DNA of 7,111 nt from Nitrospinota bacterium (GTDB taxonomy: Bacteria > Tectomicrobia > Entotheonellia > J063): positions 1 through 7,111 of the forward strand of contig RFHZ01000078.1 in assembly GCA_003696125.1 (NCBI GenBank), read 5' to 3'. The stretch's first letter is position 1. Each line of letters begins with the position of its first letter. Shown one piece after another: positions 1 through 7,033 of the stretch. The translations under genes and the position numbers were made by a program. Below the pieces are notes generated by a model that saw only the letters and a list, made by a program, of their open reading frames with translations, ran no database searches and had not been told where the DNA came from.

Positions 1-147
1 AGCCGTCTGGAAGTGCTGCAAGGCTTCGGTATAACGCTGAGCCTCTAGAGCAAGGATCCCTTTGGAAAGATAGAAATCGGAGAGTTGGGAAGCAGAAACT
101 GCACCGATGATCCAGAAGCATAGTCCAAGACCCCAGATCGTTCGCAC
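1..147 (-). CDS. Secreted TPR-repeat protein, N-terminal part only (runs off left edge)
   Basis: An open frame on the minus strand enters the window from the left edge and has no ATG. A GTG at 147 is the best start because a purine-rich ribosome site (GGGGGAA, 160-154) lies 6 bases upstream. The product then begins with a clean signal peptide: M-R, a hydrophobic core of about 14 residues (residues 4-17), and a V-S-A cleavage site at residue 19. The mature part (residues 22-49) reads as a first tetratricopeptide repeat, with FYLSKGILALEAQRYTEALQ giving the small and aromatic positions of helices A and B. It is therefore probably exported, and such repeats usually mediate protein binding. The partner and function are unknown. 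The frame stays open up to 336, so an earlier GTG (162 or 192) is possible but would spoil the signal peptide. It lies about 160 bases downstream of the phosphodiesterase gene on the same strand. Confidence 0.62.
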   Translation of the reverse strand, partial: MRTIWGLGLCFWIIGAVSASQLSDFYLSKGILALEAQRYTEALQHFQTA

Positions 148-153
148 CCGTTC

Positions 154-160
154 TTCCCCC
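154..160 (-). promoter_or_regulatory. Ribosome binding site deciding the GTG start at 147
   Basis: GGGGGAA on the minus strand, 6 bases before GTG 147. It is the best-placed purine tract upstream of any start-like codon in this frame, and it selects the start that gives a perfect signal peptide. It is not a textbook AGGAGG, so confidence is moderate. Confidence 0.45.
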
Positions 161-271
161 ACCAGGACAGACCAACCACCCAAGGCAACCACACCCTCTT
201 CGCGGGTCTTCTGGAACAAGGAGCCGTTCTTCGCCCCTTTCTGCCATGTTGGAAGCGACTCATATTTACAT

Positions 272-310: not shown

Positions 311-1075
311 TTAAAAGCGGTACGTCTTCCCCTGCTCTAACACCACGATTCTTCGGTCGTTCAGCGCATTGAGTTCTGCGATGATCTCCTCCCGGTATTT
401 CGGCTTGAGGTGGTAGATGAGCACAGGAATATCCAGATCCCCCAGTTTTTGCAGTTCTTTTCCCAGGGTATAGGGAGTCAGATGCTTACTGATATCTGCG
501 AGCCACTGATACCGGTTGGGGAAAGAGGTCTCCATGATGATCCCCCGCAGGTTACCGATCCGGCGTGCCCACTGCCAGATCTCTTCGGTAGGACCGCTAT
601 CCCCCACGTAGAGGATGGTTCCCTCTGCTGTCCCCACGAAATAGCCGACCGAAGGGACCCCATGATTGGTAGCGATGGGGAGGACCTTCTTCTCTTCAAT
701 GGTGGTTTCCACCCCTGCCTGGAGGGCCTCAAAGCGAAGAATCGGGTTATGGGCAGAGGGAATACGGGTAAAATCTGGCCAGATATGATTGTTGAACACG
801 TGATGCTTCACGATCTGGAGCACTTCAGGGATGCTATACACCGTGATGGTATATCCTTCCATATCCATCATGTTGTCCAGGATGACGGAAAGTCCGAATA
901 TATGGTCCAGGTGCGCATGGGTGAGGAGAAGCCCGCGGATTTTCTCCTGCTCTTCTAAGGAGAGGATGGCCGAGGCAGAACCCGCATCCAGGAGCAACTC
1001 CGAATCCACCAGAAAACTGCTAAGCTCAAATCCAGGCACACTGCCTCCCGAACAACCGAGGACACGAACTTCCAT
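311..1075 (-). CDS. Class II (MBL-fold) 3',5'-cyclic-nucleotide phosphodiesterase
   Basis: A cytoplasmic protein of 254 residues with no signal peptide, predicted to hydrolyse cAMP or cGMP. The metallo-beta-lactamase ligands are all present: HAHLDH (His53, His55, Asp57, His58), His138 in TNHGVPS, Asp159 in YVGDSGP and His222 in YHLKP. HxHLDH instead of the HxHGDH of RNase Z, together with METSFPN (182-187) and SKHLTPYTLGKEL (from 197), matches the class II phosphodiesterase family (yeast PDE1 and Vibrio CpdP type). The frame is open up to 1171, but that upstream ATG lies inside the -35 box of the gene's own promoter. The ATG at 1075 has GAGAGG five bases upstream and starts directly on the first beta strand (MEVRVLGCSGG). 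It follows the adenylate cyclase gene by 111 bases, which supports a cAMP role. Another MBL-fold hydrolase activity is the main alternative. Confidence 0.8.
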   Translation of the reverse strand: MEVRVLGCSGGSVPGFELSSFLVDSELLLDAGSASAILSLEEQEKIRGLLLTHAHLDHIFGLSVILDNMMDMEGYTITVYSIPEVLQIVKHHVFNNHIWPDFTRIPSAHNPILRFEALQAGVETTIEEKKVLPIATNHGVPSVGYFVGTAEGTILYVGDSGPTEEIWQWARRIGNLRGIIMETSFPNRYQWLADISKHLTPYTLGKELQKLGDLDIPVLIYHLKPKYREEIIAELNALNDRRIVVLEQGKTYRF

Positions 1076-1142
1076 AAAGACCTCTCTCGCCTTTCTCCAG
1101 TTATCGTAAACACCACCGGGCCTACCTCTCCCTCCTGCAGTC

Positions 1143-1171
1143 ACTATACCGGCTCTTCCCTTTGGGGTCAA
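1143..1171 (-). promoter_or_regulatory. Sigma-70-type promoter of the phosphodiesterase gene
   Basis: On the minus strand, TTGACC (1171-1166), a 17-base spacer and TATAGT (1148-1143). Five of six bases match consensus in each box and the spacing is ideal. Transcription would begin near 1136, giving a leader of about 60 bases. The phosphodiesterase can thus be expressed apart from the trp-cyclase transcript, although no terminator separates them. Confidence 0.75.
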
Positions 1172-1186
1172 GTTTTTTCTTTATCC

Positions 1187-3478
1187 TTACTTGGTGGCCA
1201 GGTTGTAGACCCCATCCCAGTCGGGGGGAGGAGGGGAAATCTTATAGGTCTGACACCGTTGCAGATAGGTCTGTGAGGGACCATCTGTCGGGACCACATT
1301 CAGGGCCTCACGGAAGGCCTGGATGGCCTCATCCCATTGGCGGCGCCTGTACGCGGCCAGACCAGCGGTATACCACTCCAGGAGGCGGAACTGTTCTGGG
1401 GAGAGCTCCCCTTTGCGGGCCAGGAGTTCATAGACGGTCGTCGGTTCCGCCTTGCCTCGTACCCGGATGGTATCCAGTTCTCGCACCTCGATATCGTCCC
1501 TGGCCGCTTCGTATGTTGCCTGGCTGAGCATGATCATGGTCCCATATTCCTTGTTGGCCCCTTCCAGGCGGGCAGCCAGGTTGACCGCATCCCCCATCAT
1601 GGTGTAGTCCATATGCATACGCGAGCCCATGTTCCCGATGACCATGGGTCCGGTATTCAGCCCTATCCGCATGTGGAGGAGGGGTTTTCCCTCCTTGCGC
1701 CACTCCTGTCGCCTCTCGGCAAGCCGTTGCTGCATATCTAGACTGGCGAAACAGGCGCGGCGGGCATGGTCTTCGTAAGCGATAGGGGCACCAAAAAAGG
1801 CAACAATGGCATCCCCTTCATACTTGTCGATAGTCCCTTCATAGTGCAGCAGGATTTCAGACATTTCAGAGAGGTAATCGTTCAGCAGTGCCACCAGCGC
1901 CTCGGGACTCAACTGCTCGGAGATGCTGGAGAAACCGGCCAGGTCGGAGAAGAAGGCGGTGCAGATCCGTCGTTCTCCGCCGAGCTGCAGTCTGCTGGGG
2001 TCTTCCAGCAACTGGTGAATAACGGTAGGGGCCAGGTATTGGGAGAAAGCACCGCGAATGAAGCGCTTCTCCTTTTCCGTGGTGAAGTAGATATATACGG
2101 TCACACCGATATAGGTTAACAGGATGCTCAGAGCCGGGTAAACATAGTTGTACCAGGTTCCTGCATAGACCAGGAGTCCGTAATTGCCCACGGTATATCC
2201 ACCCAGGAGCAGGAGGGTGAAGCCGGCTCCGTACAGGGGAGAGAGGCGAGGGATCACGCTACCGATCGTTATGCCGAAGAGCAGGATGGACAGGGCATCG
2301 AGCAAGAGATGCCAGTTTTTGCGCACGATGAAACGCTTGCTGAGGATATTTTCCAGCACATTGGCATGAATCTCCACCCCGGGGAAGACCGGACTGAAGG
2401 GGGTGACACGAATATCATAGATTCCCAACGCTGTTGGCCCGACCAGCACGATCTTATCCCGAAAGGTATCCAAGGGGATCTTCTGGGTCAACACGTCGGC
2501 AAAGGAATAGGTGGGGAAGGTCTGCTCTGGTCCTGCATAGTCGATGAGAAAATGGCCGGTTTCGGTCAGGGGAATCTGGAGATGGCCCACGGTGAGGCTT
2601 TCCACCCCAAACTCCTGGGCTCGAAGCTGAATAGGAACTCCCCCCAGGTAGGCGCGCAGGGCCTGGAGATCGAGAGAGGGGTAGAGGTCCTGGTGAAAAC
2701 GGATCACCAGGGGAATGCGGCGAATGGTCCCATCGGCATCCGGGTCCTGGTTGAAGAAGCCCTGCCCATAAGCCGCCTGGGCGAGAAGAGGGATATTGGT
2801 CAAGGCCCCTCGTGCCGTGAGCAGCGTATCCAGAGCCTGGGGACTGCTTCCCCGCACGATGGAGAGTTCTGTCCCTACCAGGGCTTTTTGGGCTTCTCGT
2901 CTCTGGGCTTCCCGCAGATGGGCCACCTCTTTCTCTCGGAAGTAAAAGGCCATGCCCAGGACGACGTTCCCGGCCCTGCCTATCGCTTCGGCCAGCCGGG
3001 CGTCGTTATCCGCCTCTTGTTCCACCTGGATCAGATAGCGATAGAACTGCTGGGTTGCTCTTCCTCTCTCTTGCAGGTGGAGTTGCTCAAACCGCCTTCT
3101 GAACTCCCTGACCCGTTGCAGCTCGGAGTTCGTATCCGGTTCGGCAAAGAGGATATCCAGGGCAATGACCCTGGGTCCAGCCTGGGCCAGGCGATCGATC
3201 AAGGCCGCGAGGAGAGACCGGGGCCAGGGCCAGCGACCAAAGCGCTCGATGCTCTGCTCATCGATGGCCACGATCACGACATGCGATCCTGGGGAACGAG
3301 GTCCTCGCCATTTGAAACGCTGGTCGAGCATCTTCAGCTCGAGGTTCTGGATGAGCTCCGGGTTGAGGTGGAAGAGGAAGAGGAGGAAGAGGGTCATGAC
3401 CAGAGCCAGGAAAAAGGGGACCTTTTGGTGTCCCTCTCGTTTGCCTCTCCCTGTTCTGGAGCTTTTTCGGGGGAGCAC
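1187..3478 (-). CDS. CHASE2-domain membrane adenylate cyclase (class III)
   Basis: This 763-residue protein makes cAMP from ATP in response to an unknown extracytoplasmic signal. Order: basic N-terminus, membrane helix (about 21-37), CHASE2 sensor (about 45-385, with DEQSIERFGRWPWPR and ALDILFAEPD), three membrane helices (about 388-464), class III cyclase domain (about 500-685) and a TPR-like tail (about 692-735) ending PPPPDWDGVYNLATK. Catalytic residues are intact: metal-binding Asp512 (FFSDLAGFS) and Asp556 (YEGDAI), adenine-selecting Lys552 and Asp624 (MDYT), and transition-state Asn633 and Arg637 (NLAARLE). The Lys/Asp pair argues for adenylate rather than guanylate cyclase. A charged helical stretch of about 45 residues (116-160) is inserted in CHASE2. 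The start is GTG; AAGG overlaps the trpA stop codon and lies 4 bases upstream. Only 6 bases separate it from trpA, so co-transcription with the trp genes is likely. The real ligand is unknown. Confidence 0.95.
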   Translation of the reverse strand: MLPRKSSRTGRGKREGHQKVPFFLALVMTLFLLFLFHLNPELIQNLELKMLDQRFKWRGPRSPGSHVVIVAIDEQSIERFGRWPWPRSLLAALIDRLAQAGPRVIALDILFAEPDTNSELQRVREFRRRFEQLHLQERGRATQQFYRYLIQVEQEADNDARLAEAIGRAGNVVLGMAFYFREKEVAHLREAQRREAQKALVGTELSIVRGSSPQALDTLLTARGALTNIPLLAQAAYGQGFFNQDPDADGTIRRIPLVIRFHQDLYPSLDLQALRAYLGGVPIQLRAQEFGVESLTVGHLQIPLTETGHFLIDYAGPEQTFPTYSFADVLTQKIPLDTFRDKIVLVGPTALGIYDIRVTPFSPVFPGVEIHANVLENILSKRFIVRKNWHLLLDALSILLFGITIGSVIPRLSPLYGAGFTLLLLGGYTVGNYGLLVYAGTWYNYVYPALSILLTYIGVTVYIYFTTEKEKRFIRGAFSQYLAPTVIHQLLEDPSRLQLGGERRICTAFFSDLAGFSSISEQLSPEALVALLNDYLSEMSEILLHYEGTIDKYEGDAIVAFFGAPIAYEDHARRACFASLDMQQRLAERRQEWRKEGKPLLHMRIGLNTGPMVIGNMGSRMHMDYTMMGDAVNLAARLEGANKEYGTMIMLSQATYEAARDDIEVRELDTIRVRGKAEPTTVYELLARKGELSPEQFRLLEWYTAGLAAYRRRQWDEAIQAFREALNVVPTDGPSQTYLQRCQTYKISPPPPDWDGVYNLATK

Positions 3479-3484
3479 TACACC

Positions 3485-4291
3485 TTATCCCACGGTATCA
3501 ATGGCCTGGCGCAGGGCCGCCACACTCGTCCCCAGTTTTTGCAGGGTGGCAGGAAAGTCACCGAGATGTTCCTCGATGACCTTGATCAGGGCACTCCCTA
3601 CGATCACTCCATCGGCAAAGCTGGCCACCACCTGAGCCTGGGCAGGGTTGGAGATACCAAAACCGACGGCAACCGGCTTATCGGTCACCGCCCGGATCCG
3701 GGTCAGCATGGTACGCAGGTCCTCGGCCAGTCTTTCCCGAATGCCGGTAATACCGGTGCGAGAGACATAGTAGATGAACCCCTGGCTCACCCGGGCAATG
3801 AGCGCAATCCGTTCCGGCGGACTGGTGGGGGCCAGGAGGCAGACCAGATCCAGGTCGGTCTCTGCTGTCCGCTGAAGGAGTGAACGGCCTTCCTCGGGGG
3901 GAAGATCAGGGATGATCACCCCATCAACCCCGGCCTGCAGGGCATCCTGCACGAAGCGCTCTTCCCCATAGCGGAAGACCGGATTATAGTAGGTGAGTAA
4001 GATCAGCGGAACGCCGGTCTTTGATCGGAGCTGGGATACCAGGTCGAGTACAGTGGTCAGCGAAGTCCCACGCCCCAGGGCTCGTTGTGCGGCACGCTGG
4101 ATGATCGGTCCATCCGCGATCGGATCGGAGAAAGGCACACCGAGTTCGATCAGGTCTGCTCCCCGCTTTTCCAACTCCAGCAGCAAGGCGGCGGTCTGCT
4201 CCAGATCCGGGTCTCCTGCCATCAGAAAGGGGATCAACGCTTTTTTTCCTGTACGACGCAGTCGGGTGAAAACGGTCTCGATTCTTCCCAT
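3485..4291 (-). CDS. trpA: Tryptophan synthase alpha subunit
   Basis: Cleaves indole-3-glycerol phosphate to indole and glyceraldehyde 3-phosphate, passing indole to TrpB in the alpha2-beta2 complex in the cytoplasm. The 268 residues match the usual family length. Catalytic Glu49 (LIELGVPFSDP) and Asp60 (PIADGP) are in place. The mobile loop and phosphate-binding segments SRTGITG, VGFGIS and DGVIVGSALI are recognisable along a TIM barrel. The ATG overlaps the trpB stop by one base (TGATG), and AGGAGG lies 7 bases upstream, the strongest ribosome site in the block. It is the last biosynthetic gene before the cyclase. Confidence 0.98.
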   Translation of the reverse strand: MGRIETVFTRLRRTGKKALIPFLMAGDPDLEQTAALLLELEKRGADLIELGVPFSDPIADGPIIQRAAQRALGRGTSLTTVLDLVSQLRSKTGVPLILLTYYNPVFRYGEERFVQDALQAGVDGVIIPDLPPEEGRSLLQRTAETDLDLVCLLAPTSPPERIALIARVSQGFIYYVSRTGITGIRERLAEDLRTMLTRIRAVTDKPVAVGFGISNPAQAQVVASFADGVIVGSALIKVIEEHLGDFPATLQKLGTSVAALRQAIDTVG

Positions 4292-5514
4292 CAGTGGACC
4301 TCCTGCAGGGTAGGGGAGGAGCTTCCTGCCTTCTCGTCTTGCATCTTAGCGACCTGATCCACATCTTTGTCGCCTCGACCGGAGAGGCATAAGACCACAA
4401 TCGTCTCTGGTGGAAGGGTAGGGGCCAGCTTTTGGAGATAGGCAAGCGCATGTGCCGGTTCCAAAGCCGGGATAATCCCTTCTGTCTGGGAGAGTAAGCG
4501 AAAGGCCTCCAGAGCTTCGGCATCGGTAACCGTCACATAGGTGATCCGGCCCTGTTCTTTGTAATAGCTGTGTTCCGGGCCCACGCCAGGATAGTCGAGG
4601 CCGGCCGAGATGGAGTGGGCCTGGCGGATCTGGCCATGGGCATCCTGCAAGACATAGCTTTTGCTCCCGTGCAGTACCCCGGGACTCCCTCCGGAAAGAG
4701 AGGCGCCATGTTTTCCGCTTTCCAGTCCATACCCTCCTGCCTCCACGCCGATCAGCCTGACCTCCTTGTCCGGCAGGAAGGGGTAAAAGAGTCCCATGGC
4801 ATTACTCCCCCCTCCCACACAGGCGATGCAGTAATCCGGGTAGCGTCCCTCCCTCTCCTGGATTTGGGCTTTGACCTCCTCCCCGATCACCGACTGGAAA
4901 TCGCGCACGATCATAGGGAAAGGGTGGGGACCGACCACCGAACCGATCAGGTAATGGGTATCGCGCACCGTGGTCACCCAGTCGCGCAGGGTTTCGTTGA
5001 TGGCATCCTTGAGCGTGCGGCTCCCGCTCCGTACCGGGATCACCCTGGCCCCCAAAAGGCGCATGCGGAAGACGTTAAGGGCCTGGCGCTCGGTATCTTC
5101 TTCCCCCATATAGATGTCACAGCGCAGTCCAAAGAGGGCCGCCGCCGTAGCCGTTGCCACCCCATGCTGTCCGGCACCGGTCTCGGCGATGATACGCTTC
5201 TTCCCCATGCGCAAGGTGAGTAAGGCCTGTCCGATGCTGTTGTTGATCTTGTGCGCTCCGGTATGATTGAGATCCTCCCGTTTGAGGTAGATCTTCGGAC
5301 CCCCAAGTGCCTGGGTGAGGCGTTCCGCAAAATAGAGGGGGGTGGGCCTTCCGACGTAATGGGTGAGGTAGTAACGGAACTGCTCCTGAAAAGTGGGATC
5401 GTTTCGCGCCTGTCGATACGCCTCTTCCAGTTCGTCCAGGGCGTAAACGAGGGTCTCCGGTACATAGCGGCCACCAAAAATTCCAAAATGGCCTTGGGCA
5501 TCAGGTAACTGCAT
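4291..5514 (-). CDS. trpB: Tryptophan synthase beta subunit
   Basis: PLP enzyme that joins indole with serine to form tryptophan, working with TrpA. It is 407 residues, full length. The PLP lysine is Lys89 (HTGAHKINN), the catalytic glutamate is Glu111 (ETGAGQHG), the PLP phosphate loop is GGGSNAMG (234-241), and the C-terminal CLSGRGDKD (376-384) supplies the serine near the cofactor nitrogen. It is the TrpA-associated TrpB1 type, starting [18 protein letters not shown]. The ATG lies 14 bases inside the end of trpF, with AGAGG only 3 bases upstream, which is a short spacing and suggests dependence on translational coupling. A short polar tail (about 391-407) extends past the conserved end. 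Confidence 0.98.
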
Positions 5515-6130
5515 CGTCCTCTAATCCTTTCGCCTGTTGAATAAACTGTTCCATCTTTTTCCGATCCTTATACCCCGGCTTCTCTTCTACCCCGCTACTC
5601 ACATCGACGCCATACGGCTTTACCTGGTTTACCGCCTCCCGCACGTTTCCCGGATGGAGGCCACCGGCCAGGATGATCCGGCCGTAGGCCTTGGCAGCGA
5701 CGGCCATCTCCCATGGGAATCTCGTGCCTGATCCTCCGTATACCCCCTCTTTGTACCCATCGAGGAGAAAGGCGTTCACCGGGTACTGGGACAGGGGGGG
5801 CAGGGGTGCTCCTGCCTGGAGACGAAACGCCTTGATGACACGTCGCCGTATTGCCCGACAGTAAGCCGGATCTTCCTGCCCGTGCAGTTGGACGATATCG
5901 AGGGCACAATAAGCGCTGATCTCCTCCACCTCGGCTACCGGGAGATTCACAAAGAGTCCCACCGTGGTGACAAAGGGGGGAAGGCCGGCGATAATCTCTC
6001 GCGCCTGTTCCGGAGAGATGTAACGAGGACTGGGAGGGTAGAACACAAAGCCGAGGGCATCCGCCCCTGCCTCTACCGCACCGATGGCATCCTCCCAGTT
6101 GGTAATGCCACAGATCTTTACCTTAACCAC
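5501..6130 (-). CDS. trpF: Phosphoribosylanthranilate isomerase
   Basis: Converts N-(5'-phosphoribosyl)anthranilate to the ribulose form (CdRP), the substrate of TrpC. With a GTG start at 6130 the product is 209 residues, typical of the family. Catalytic Cys7 (KICGIT) and Asp124 (FLLDGY) are present, with phosphate-binding motifs [11 protein letters not shown] (153-163) and VDVSSGVE (175-182). An in-frame ATG at 6166 would add 12 residues that do not belong to the fold and lie deep inside trpC. The GTG has AGGAG 7 bases upstream. The gene overlaps trpC by 8 bases and trpB by 14 bases. It is a separate gene, not fused to trpC as in enteric bacteria. Confidence 0.96.
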
Positions 6131-6902
6131 CCAAGAGCTCCTGTAGTACCTGCCCGGGCTCTGCACCCCGCATCAAGGCTTCGCCAACCAGGAAGACCCG
6201 TACCCCTTGCGCGCACAGATATTCGATGTCTGCCCGGGTGTGAATCCCGCTCTCACTCACCACTACCTTCCCGGGTGGGATATGGGGGAGCAGGTGAAGG
6301 GTTGTAGCGGTATCGGTATGAAAGGTCTGCAGGTTGCGGTTATTGATCCCGATGATCCGTGCCTCGGCCCGCAGGGCCCTTTCCAGTTCCGCCGTGGTAT
6401 GCACCTCGACCAGGGCCTCCATCTGTAAGGAGTGGGTAAGGGCCAGCAAATCCCGTAGCAACCCGTCGTCCAGGAGGGCAACGATGAGGAGAAGGGCATC
6501 AGCACCGTAAGCACGCGACTCGTAGATCTGGTAGGGGTCAAAGAGAAAATCTTTGCGGAGAATGGGGAGGCTAGTCGCCTGCTTCACCAGGGGGAGAAAG
6601 GCCCGATCTCCCTGGAAAAAGGTCGCTTCGGTCAAGACAGAAATGGCGGCAGCCCCGTGTTCAGCATAGCTCTTTGCAATCTGGACCGGGTCGGCCCCAG
6701 GAGCGATCACCCCTCGAGAAGGCGAGGCACGTTTGATCTCGGCAATGATGCGTACCTCCTCTCGTTCTCGCGTCTGCAAAGCCTGGAAAAAGTTACGGGG
6801 AGTTCCTGCCGCTGCGATCCGCTCCTGGAGGAGGGGGAGCGGCTCTTCCCGTTTGCTCTGCACCAGCGCTCTGCGCTTGGCCTGCAAGATCTTCTCCAGC
6901 AT
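6123..6902 (-). CDS. trpC: Indole-3-glycerol phosphate synthase
   Basis: Closes the indole ring: CdRP is decarboxylated and cyclised to indole-3-glycerol phosphate, which feeds TrpA. The 259-residue TIM barrel has the N-terminal helical extension of the family. Active-site residues can be assigned by motif: Glu55 and Lys57 (AEIKRASPSRG), Lys117 (RKDF), Glu166 (LVEVH), Asn187 (GINNRNL), Glu217 and Ser218 (SESGI). The start is ATG with AGGAG 6 bases upstream. It is the first gene of the block, about 40 bases downstream of a predicted transcription start, so no trp gene precedes it on this transcript. Confidence 0.98.
   Translation of the reverse strand: MLEKILQAKRRALVQSKREEPLPLLQERIAAAGTPRNFFQALQTREREEVRIIAEIKRASPSRGVIAPGADPVQIAKSYAEHGAAAISVLTEATFFQGDRAFLPLVKQATSLPILRKDFLFDPYQIYESRAYGADALLLIVALLDDGLLRDLLALTHSLQMEALVEVHTTAELERALRAEARIIGINNRNLQTFHTDTATTLHLLPHIPPGKVVVSESGIHTRADIEYLCAQGVRVFLVGEALMRGAEPGQVLQELLGG
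6138..6142 (-). promoter_or_regulatory. Ribosome binding site deciding the GTG start of trpF
   Basis: AGGAG inside the last codons of trpC, 7 bases before GTG 6130. It selects the GTG over the ATG at 6166, whose product would carry 12 non-homologous residues. Confidence 0.8.
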
Positions 6903-7005: not shown

Positions 7006-7033
7006 TTGACTAAGTTCTGCAGGAACTTATAAT
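7006..7033 (+). promoter_or_regulatory. Divergent sigma-70-type promoter reading out of the right edge
   Basis: TTGACT (7006-7011), a 16-base spacer and perfect TATAAT (7028-7033). This is stronger than the trpC promoter. It points to a plus-strand gene starting beyond the window, with transcription from about 7040. No supported coding start is visible between there and 7111. Confidence 0.72.
7011..7029. promoter_or_regulatory. Perfect palindrome in the divergent promoter spacer (probable operator)
   Basis: TAAGTTC (7011-7017) and GAACTTA (7023-7029) are exact reverse complements separated by 5 bases. They fill the space between the -35 and -10 boxes. A third half-site GAACTT lies at 7035-7040, at the expected transcription start. 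A protein bound here would block RNA polymerase on the rightward gene. Relative to the leftward trpC start the site lies around -70 to -90. I do not recognise the motif as the site of a named regulator. Confidence 0.6.

Follow-up and report, generated by a model that had tools for sequence, protein, structure and literature searches.

A predicted class II cAMP phosphodiesterase encoded beside a CHASE2 adenylate cyclase at the end of a bacterial trp gene run

Introduction

When a gene for an adenylate cyclase is followed on the same strand by a gene for a putative phosphodiesterase, do the two form a self-contained signaling module, as the first-pass annotation of this locus suggested, or would the phosphodiesterase serve the cell more widely? 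As far as we are aware, the removal of cAMP in bacteria is poorly known beyond a few models. On the evidence presented here we consider it probable (roughly 0.78) that the pair, as predicted, makes and hydrolyzes 3',5'-cAMP, with the phosphodiesterase acting as a general cAMP sink located beside one membrane sensor cyclase.

Results

Genomic context of the pair

The window, by which we mean the whole stretch of DNA analyzed, is a single contig of 7,111 bases from a MAG of 4.18 Mb, which consists of 990 contigs and has a reported contamination of 8%. All recognized genes in the window lie on the minus strand, and they are given below in the order of transcription, together with a possible promoter.

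6123-6902, minus strand: trpC (indole-3-glycerol phosphate synthase), assigned by reading its sequence and from its place in the operon; it opens the run within the window
5501-6166, minus strand: trpF, which groups with trpF-position genes of other loci
4291-5514, minus strand: trpB, which groups with trpB-position genes of other loci
3485-4291, minus strand: trpA, with its stop codon 6 nt before the cyclase start
1187-3478, minus strand: CHASE2 - class III adenylate cyclase - TPR protein, 763 aa, GTG start
1143-1171, minus strand: possible sigma-70-type promoter (TTGACC-17-TATAGT), a 10/12 consensus match only, in the 111-nt gap between the cyclase and phosphodiesterase genes
311-1075, minus strand: predicted typical class II cyclic-nucleotide phosphodiesterase (MBL fold, PF02112), 254 aa, ATG start
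1-247, minus strand: beginning of a further reading frame, which encodes a hydrophobic segment and a TPR-like stretch and is truncated by the contig end

The first-pass annotation was correct in its gene content and in placing the two genes side by side on one strand (3478-1187 and 1075-311), but it missed the junction with trpA. The GTG start of the cyclase lies 6 nt past the trpA stop, and the cyclase closes the trpC-F-B-A run, with which it is probably co-transcribed. The ATG of the phosphodiesterase is located 111 nt past the cyclase stop. A separate promoter for the phosphodiesterase, as had been proposed, is weakly indicated by the match at 1171-1143; the promoter scan as a whole gave 4 matches against 2.3 +/- 1.6 for shuffled sequences, which is not a significant excess. 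Since the gap contained no called terminator on the minus strand, transcripts of the cyclase may continue into the phosphodiesterase; the latter gene is probably transcribed in this way and perhaps also from a promoter of its own.

There was no sign of contig contamination: the GC content of the contig (57.5%) and its tetranucleotide profile match other contigs of the genome, despite the 8% contamination reported for the MAG and the fact that trpA genes of same-class genomes are just 32-35% identical to the trpA of the window. Because the genome is fragmented and carries this level of contamination, gene counts may be off. An Rfam search found no families, a tRNA search found no tRNA, and no 16S was found in the genome. 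At the far end of the contig, a strong promoter-like match (TTGACT-16-TATAAT, 11/12; 7006-7033, plus strand) points away from the trp genes. A perfect palindrome (AAGTTC-TGCAG-GAACTT, 7012-7028) lies between and beside its hexamers, with an extra GAACTT half-site just downstream, and judging by its sequence this region looks like the operator of a divergent gene past the contig end.

Domain analysis of the cyclase

Pfam searches identified a CHASE2 domain (residues 30-403, 1.8e-75, 254 bits) and a Guanylate_cyc domain (residues 506-682, 3.1e-24, 86 bits), both above cut-off, as well as a TPR stretch (residues 701-731) slightly below it. Hydrophobic stretches at residues 17-43 and about 390-413 flank the CHASE2 domain, as would be expected of an extracytoplasmic sensor. 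The metal residues D512/D556, the adenine-selecting K552/D624 and the transition-state N633/R637 are all kept, and the description of this protein as a complete CHASE2 adenylate cyclase was borne out. The solved structures that best match it are adenylate cyclases; taken together with the six residues, this makes ATP the likely substrate, as predicted from knowledge of the family.

At the C-terminus (window 1187-1250, minus strand) the TPR is followed by PPPPDWDGVYNL. Many cyclases adjacent to a phosphodiesterase align with the window cyclase up to its last residue, so this tail seems to be conserved. We found no cyclase lineage peculiar to phosphodiesterase neighbors: the four best matches to the cyclase (G174, G044, G191 and G003) are encoded off the contig of a phosphodiesterase, and G003 is a genome without one.

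Identity of the MBL-fold protein

The class II signatures quoted in the first-pass annotation (HAHLDH at residues 53-58, ETSFPN and SKHLTP) are all present, along with N95..W99-P100-D101 and an S/GHLTP motif. Nearly all of 111 relatives share the metal ligands H53, H55, D57, H58, H138, D159 and H222. The protein scores 55.8 bits against PF02112, for which the cut-off is 23.7, and all 14 family members scanned match the same domain (E <= 0.001). In its AlphaFold2 model the mean pLDDT is 92. Among solved structures, yeast PDE1 ranks first by sequence, by Foldseek and by VIA-align (Z 29.0 over 249 residues, 30% identity). Other MBL proteins trail it modestly in Z (27.5 vs 29.0) and clearly in identity (12-23% vs 30%).

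The fold alone does not separate this protein from RNase Z, because RNase Z structures reach a Z of about 27, with an identity of 17-18%. Among NCBIfam models RNase Z is the best by E-value, yet its score is 48 bits against a cut-off of 293; a separate, genuine RNase Z is encoded on contig C641 (335 bits, over the cut-off), and the window protein scores 36 in the same genome search. Class II is therefore favored by the sequence family, by the W-P-D and HLTP motifs, which are common to the window protein and yeast PDE1, and by the fact that the genome has a true RNase Z elsewhere, and we rejected the identification as RNase Z. Typical class II enzymes are defined by HxHLDH and PF02112, while atypical ones (Rv1339, YhfI and C. 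glutamicum CpdA) are assigned to PF12706, near RNase Z (PMC9293780). With its HxHLDH motif and a PF02112 score above the cut-off, the window protein belongs by this definition with the typical enzymes; against NF041851 it scores 31.5 bits of 400. Both its sequence and its modeled structure thus support the prediction of a typical class II phosphodiesterase.

Recurrence of the cyclase-phosphodiesterase adjacency

We examined 386 genomes drawn irrespective of gene order, 65 of which, or 64 besides that of the window, encode an orthologue of the phosphodiesterase. A same-strand cyclase lies within 3 kb of it in 10 of these 64 genomes (9 once one genus duplicate is removed), where 0.28 would be expected from the cyclase count and size of each genome if cyclases are taken as random in position and genomes as independent; the other 54 have no adjacent cyclase. 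On a tree of 111 phosphodiesterases, a quick tree with many weak branches, cyclase adjacency requires at least 14 changes, and therefore it recurs. In a separate, similarity-selected set, a CHASE2 cyclase is located directly upstream of the phosphodiesterase in 11 betaproteobacterial loci. Three genomes that encode just one cyclase in all (G039, G134 and G211) have it next to the phosphodiesterase. Cyclases beside the phosphodiesterase nearly always retain the adenine-selecting lysine. By quick alignment, the cyclase domains next to the phosphodiesterases of a planctomycete (L058) and of its tree neighbor (L171) are without canonical ATP-selecting residues; they could have another substrate or be misaligned there. 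A literature search, conducted outside most subscription journals, found no paper linking bacterial class II phosphodiesterases with adjacent cyclases.

The expectation that the adjacency would recur thus holds across phyla and fails among close relatives. The nearest relative of the window phosphodiesterase (47-48%) is from Methylomirabilota (L039), where trpA is followed by the phosphodiesterase with no cyclase between them. No phosphodiesterase of this kind was found in any of four same-class genomes, a thin sample drawn from another family, and two of the same-class genomes (G003 and G004) encode cyclases of the window type. Since trpA adjoins the phosphodiesterase in L039 and the cyclase occurs without a phosphodiesterase in G003 and G004, the simplest reading of these few genomes is that the cyclase came between trpA and the phosphodiesterase in the lineage of the window, independently of the betaproteobacterial pairs.

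Other neighbors of the phosphodiesterase

We counted same-strand neighbors within 2.5 kb at 67 phosphodiesterase places, with representatives confirmed by Pfam. The most frequent are cNMP-binding proteins (21), accD (20) and folC (16), followed by cyclases (10), HD-GYP proteins (8) and trpA (7). CRP-type cAMP receptors are therefore found beside the phosphodiesterase about twice as often as cyclases, and cNMP-binding genes are denser right beside it than farther away; some of these neighbors combine cNMP-binding and Crp helix-turn-helix domains. At least one of accD, folC and trpA is near the phosphodiesterase in 27 of the 67 places. This linkage, at least as frequent as that to cyclases, could hint at a housekeeping role.

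The gene that lies between trpA and the phosphodiesterase varies. It is a CHASE2 cyclase in the window, an HD-GYP gene in five loci (L043, L082, L139, L151 and L159) and a cNMP-binding gene in two (L118 and L120), while trpA directly precedes the phosphodiesterase in four (L039, L041, L146 and L152). The trpA-accD-folC gene order itself is already known, and the flanking-gene table of the paper describing it has no phosphodiesterase or cyclase entries (PMC2395257). We tentatively suggest, at somewhat less than even odds, that a cross-phylum and largely uncharacterized class II family belongs to a trpFBA-[signaling gene]-phosphodiesterase-accD-folC cluster. On this reading, different cAMP or c-di-GMP components (a CHASE2 cyclase, a CRP-type receptor or an HD-GYP protein) occupy the position ahead of the phosphodiesterase, and the cluster would link the turnover of cyclic nucleotides to genes for the synthesis of tryptophan, fatty acids and folate.

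A second CHASE2 protein is encoded upstream in eight betaproteobacterial loci (L047, L048, L050, L051, L054, L055, L056 and L066), and the cNMP-binding protein of L047 carries a rhodanese domain. The order in L066 is PP2C and FHA genes, CHASE2 cyclase, phosphodiesterase, cNMP-binding protein, GAF-T2SSE ATPase and GAF-HD-GYP protein, which makes up a large multi-messenger cluster.

Discussion

Alternative explanations

A closed circuit, in which the phosphodiesterase serves its neighbor cyclase alone, would agree with two adjoining genes on one strand, 111 nt apart, with the similar pairs of many Betaproteobacteria, which are followed by further cNMP-binding and HD-GYP genes, and with the three genomes that keep their sole cyclase beside the phosphodiesterase. 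It does not agree well with the rest of the genome, where a profile search gave 14 Guanylate_cyc and 7 cNMP-binding matches and one PF02112 match (CpdA-type class III phosphodiesterases are outside this count). In a quick alignment, some of the other cyclase-domain matches lack the canonical residues for ATP selection, so not all 14 proteins need be active adenylate cyclases. No cAMP receptor gene was found within the 7,111-nt window, the cyclase is part of the trp operon, and the closest relative of the phosphodiesterase has no adjacent cyclase. Furthermore, cAMP is diffusible. The proposal of a self-contained module was therefore not upheld, and we regard a dedicated circuit as unlikely.

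The predicted substrate could also differ, because MBL relatives of the same fold include tRNA nucleases, Apyc1 and PhnP. Activity mainly on another cyclic nucleotide (cGMP, a cyclic pyrimidine or a cyclic oligonucleotide), as for Apyc1-like relatives, would fit the presence of Apyc1 and YhfI among the top fold matches, a weak match of one relative of the phosphodiesterase to the Apyc1 family, and the common occurrence of neighboring HD-GYP proteins, which are usually c-di-GMP enzymes. Nevertheless, the neighbor cyclases nearly always have the adenine-selecting lysine, the neighbors that join cNMP-binding and Crp helix-turn-helix domains suggest cAMP, and the protein is closer to yeast PDE1, a cyclic-nucleotide phosphodiesterase whose class takes its name from cAMP; we find this alternative quite improbable. 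In a further alternative, the MBL protein would be a housekeeping hydrolase, RNase Z-like or other, that owes its position to the conserved trp-accD-folC cluster and lies near a cyclase incidentally. This is suggested by the 27 places near accD, folC or trpA, by the E-value ranking in NCBIfam and by nearly equal RNase Z folds, but seems very improbable given the low RNase Z score and the true RNase Z elsewhere in the genome, the PF02112 match and motifs in common with yeast PDE1, the excess of adjacent cyclases far above chance and the density of cNMP-binding genes right beside it.

Proposed function of the pair

We thus return to a cAMP-making and cAMP-hydrolyzing pair with a general sink. 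The CHASE2 domain, situated between membrane segments on the extracytoplasmic side, would sense a signal and drive a cytoplasmic class III catalytic homodimer predicted to convert ATP to cAMP. The downstream enzyme, presumably a soluble, di-metal class II phosphodiesterase, would convert cAMP to AMP. Most likely it acts on the cAMP pool of the whole cell, as a general off-switch, because the genome encodes many cyclases and several cNMP-binding proteins and one such phosphodiesterase, and its position next to one cyclase probably reflects shared or balanced expression rather than a private circuit. Overall, the observed pairing is confirmed, and the family assignments and the recurrence are supported.

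A class II phosphodiesterase whose gene recurs next to those of cyclases and cAMP receptors across unrelated phyla is a candidate for the missing cAMP off-switch. Its place in the trp-accD-folC cluster also raises the testable idea that the turnover of cAMP is linked to core biosynthesis.

Comparison with known systems

The cyclase resembles known CHASE2 class III adenylate cyclases in having CHASE2 between membrane segments, and its catalytic domain shares the ATP-selecting K/D and the metal aspartates with those of P. aeruginosa CyaB (3r5g) and CyaC (1wc1). It differs from them in its additional C-terminal TPR and WDGV tail and in its location right after trpA. The phosphodiesterase shares the fold, the HxHLDH, W-P-D and HLTP-like motifs and seven metal ligands with typical class II enzymes (PF02112; yeast PDE1, PDB 4ojv); in contrast to yeast PDE1, this predicted enzyme is about 110 residues shorter, bacterial, and encoded beside a cyclase and trp genes. 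With the atypical enzymes (Rv1339, YhfI and C. glutamicum CpdA) it has in common the MBL fold, a related metal motif and a bacterial origin, but unlike them it has HxHLDH and passes PF02112 (as well as the broad PF12706). Finally, the locus follows the trp order of the trpFBA-accD-folC cluster as described in PMC2395257, and accD and folC accompany the phosphodiesterase in other phyla, whereas in the window trpA is followed by a cyclase and a class II phosphodiesterase.
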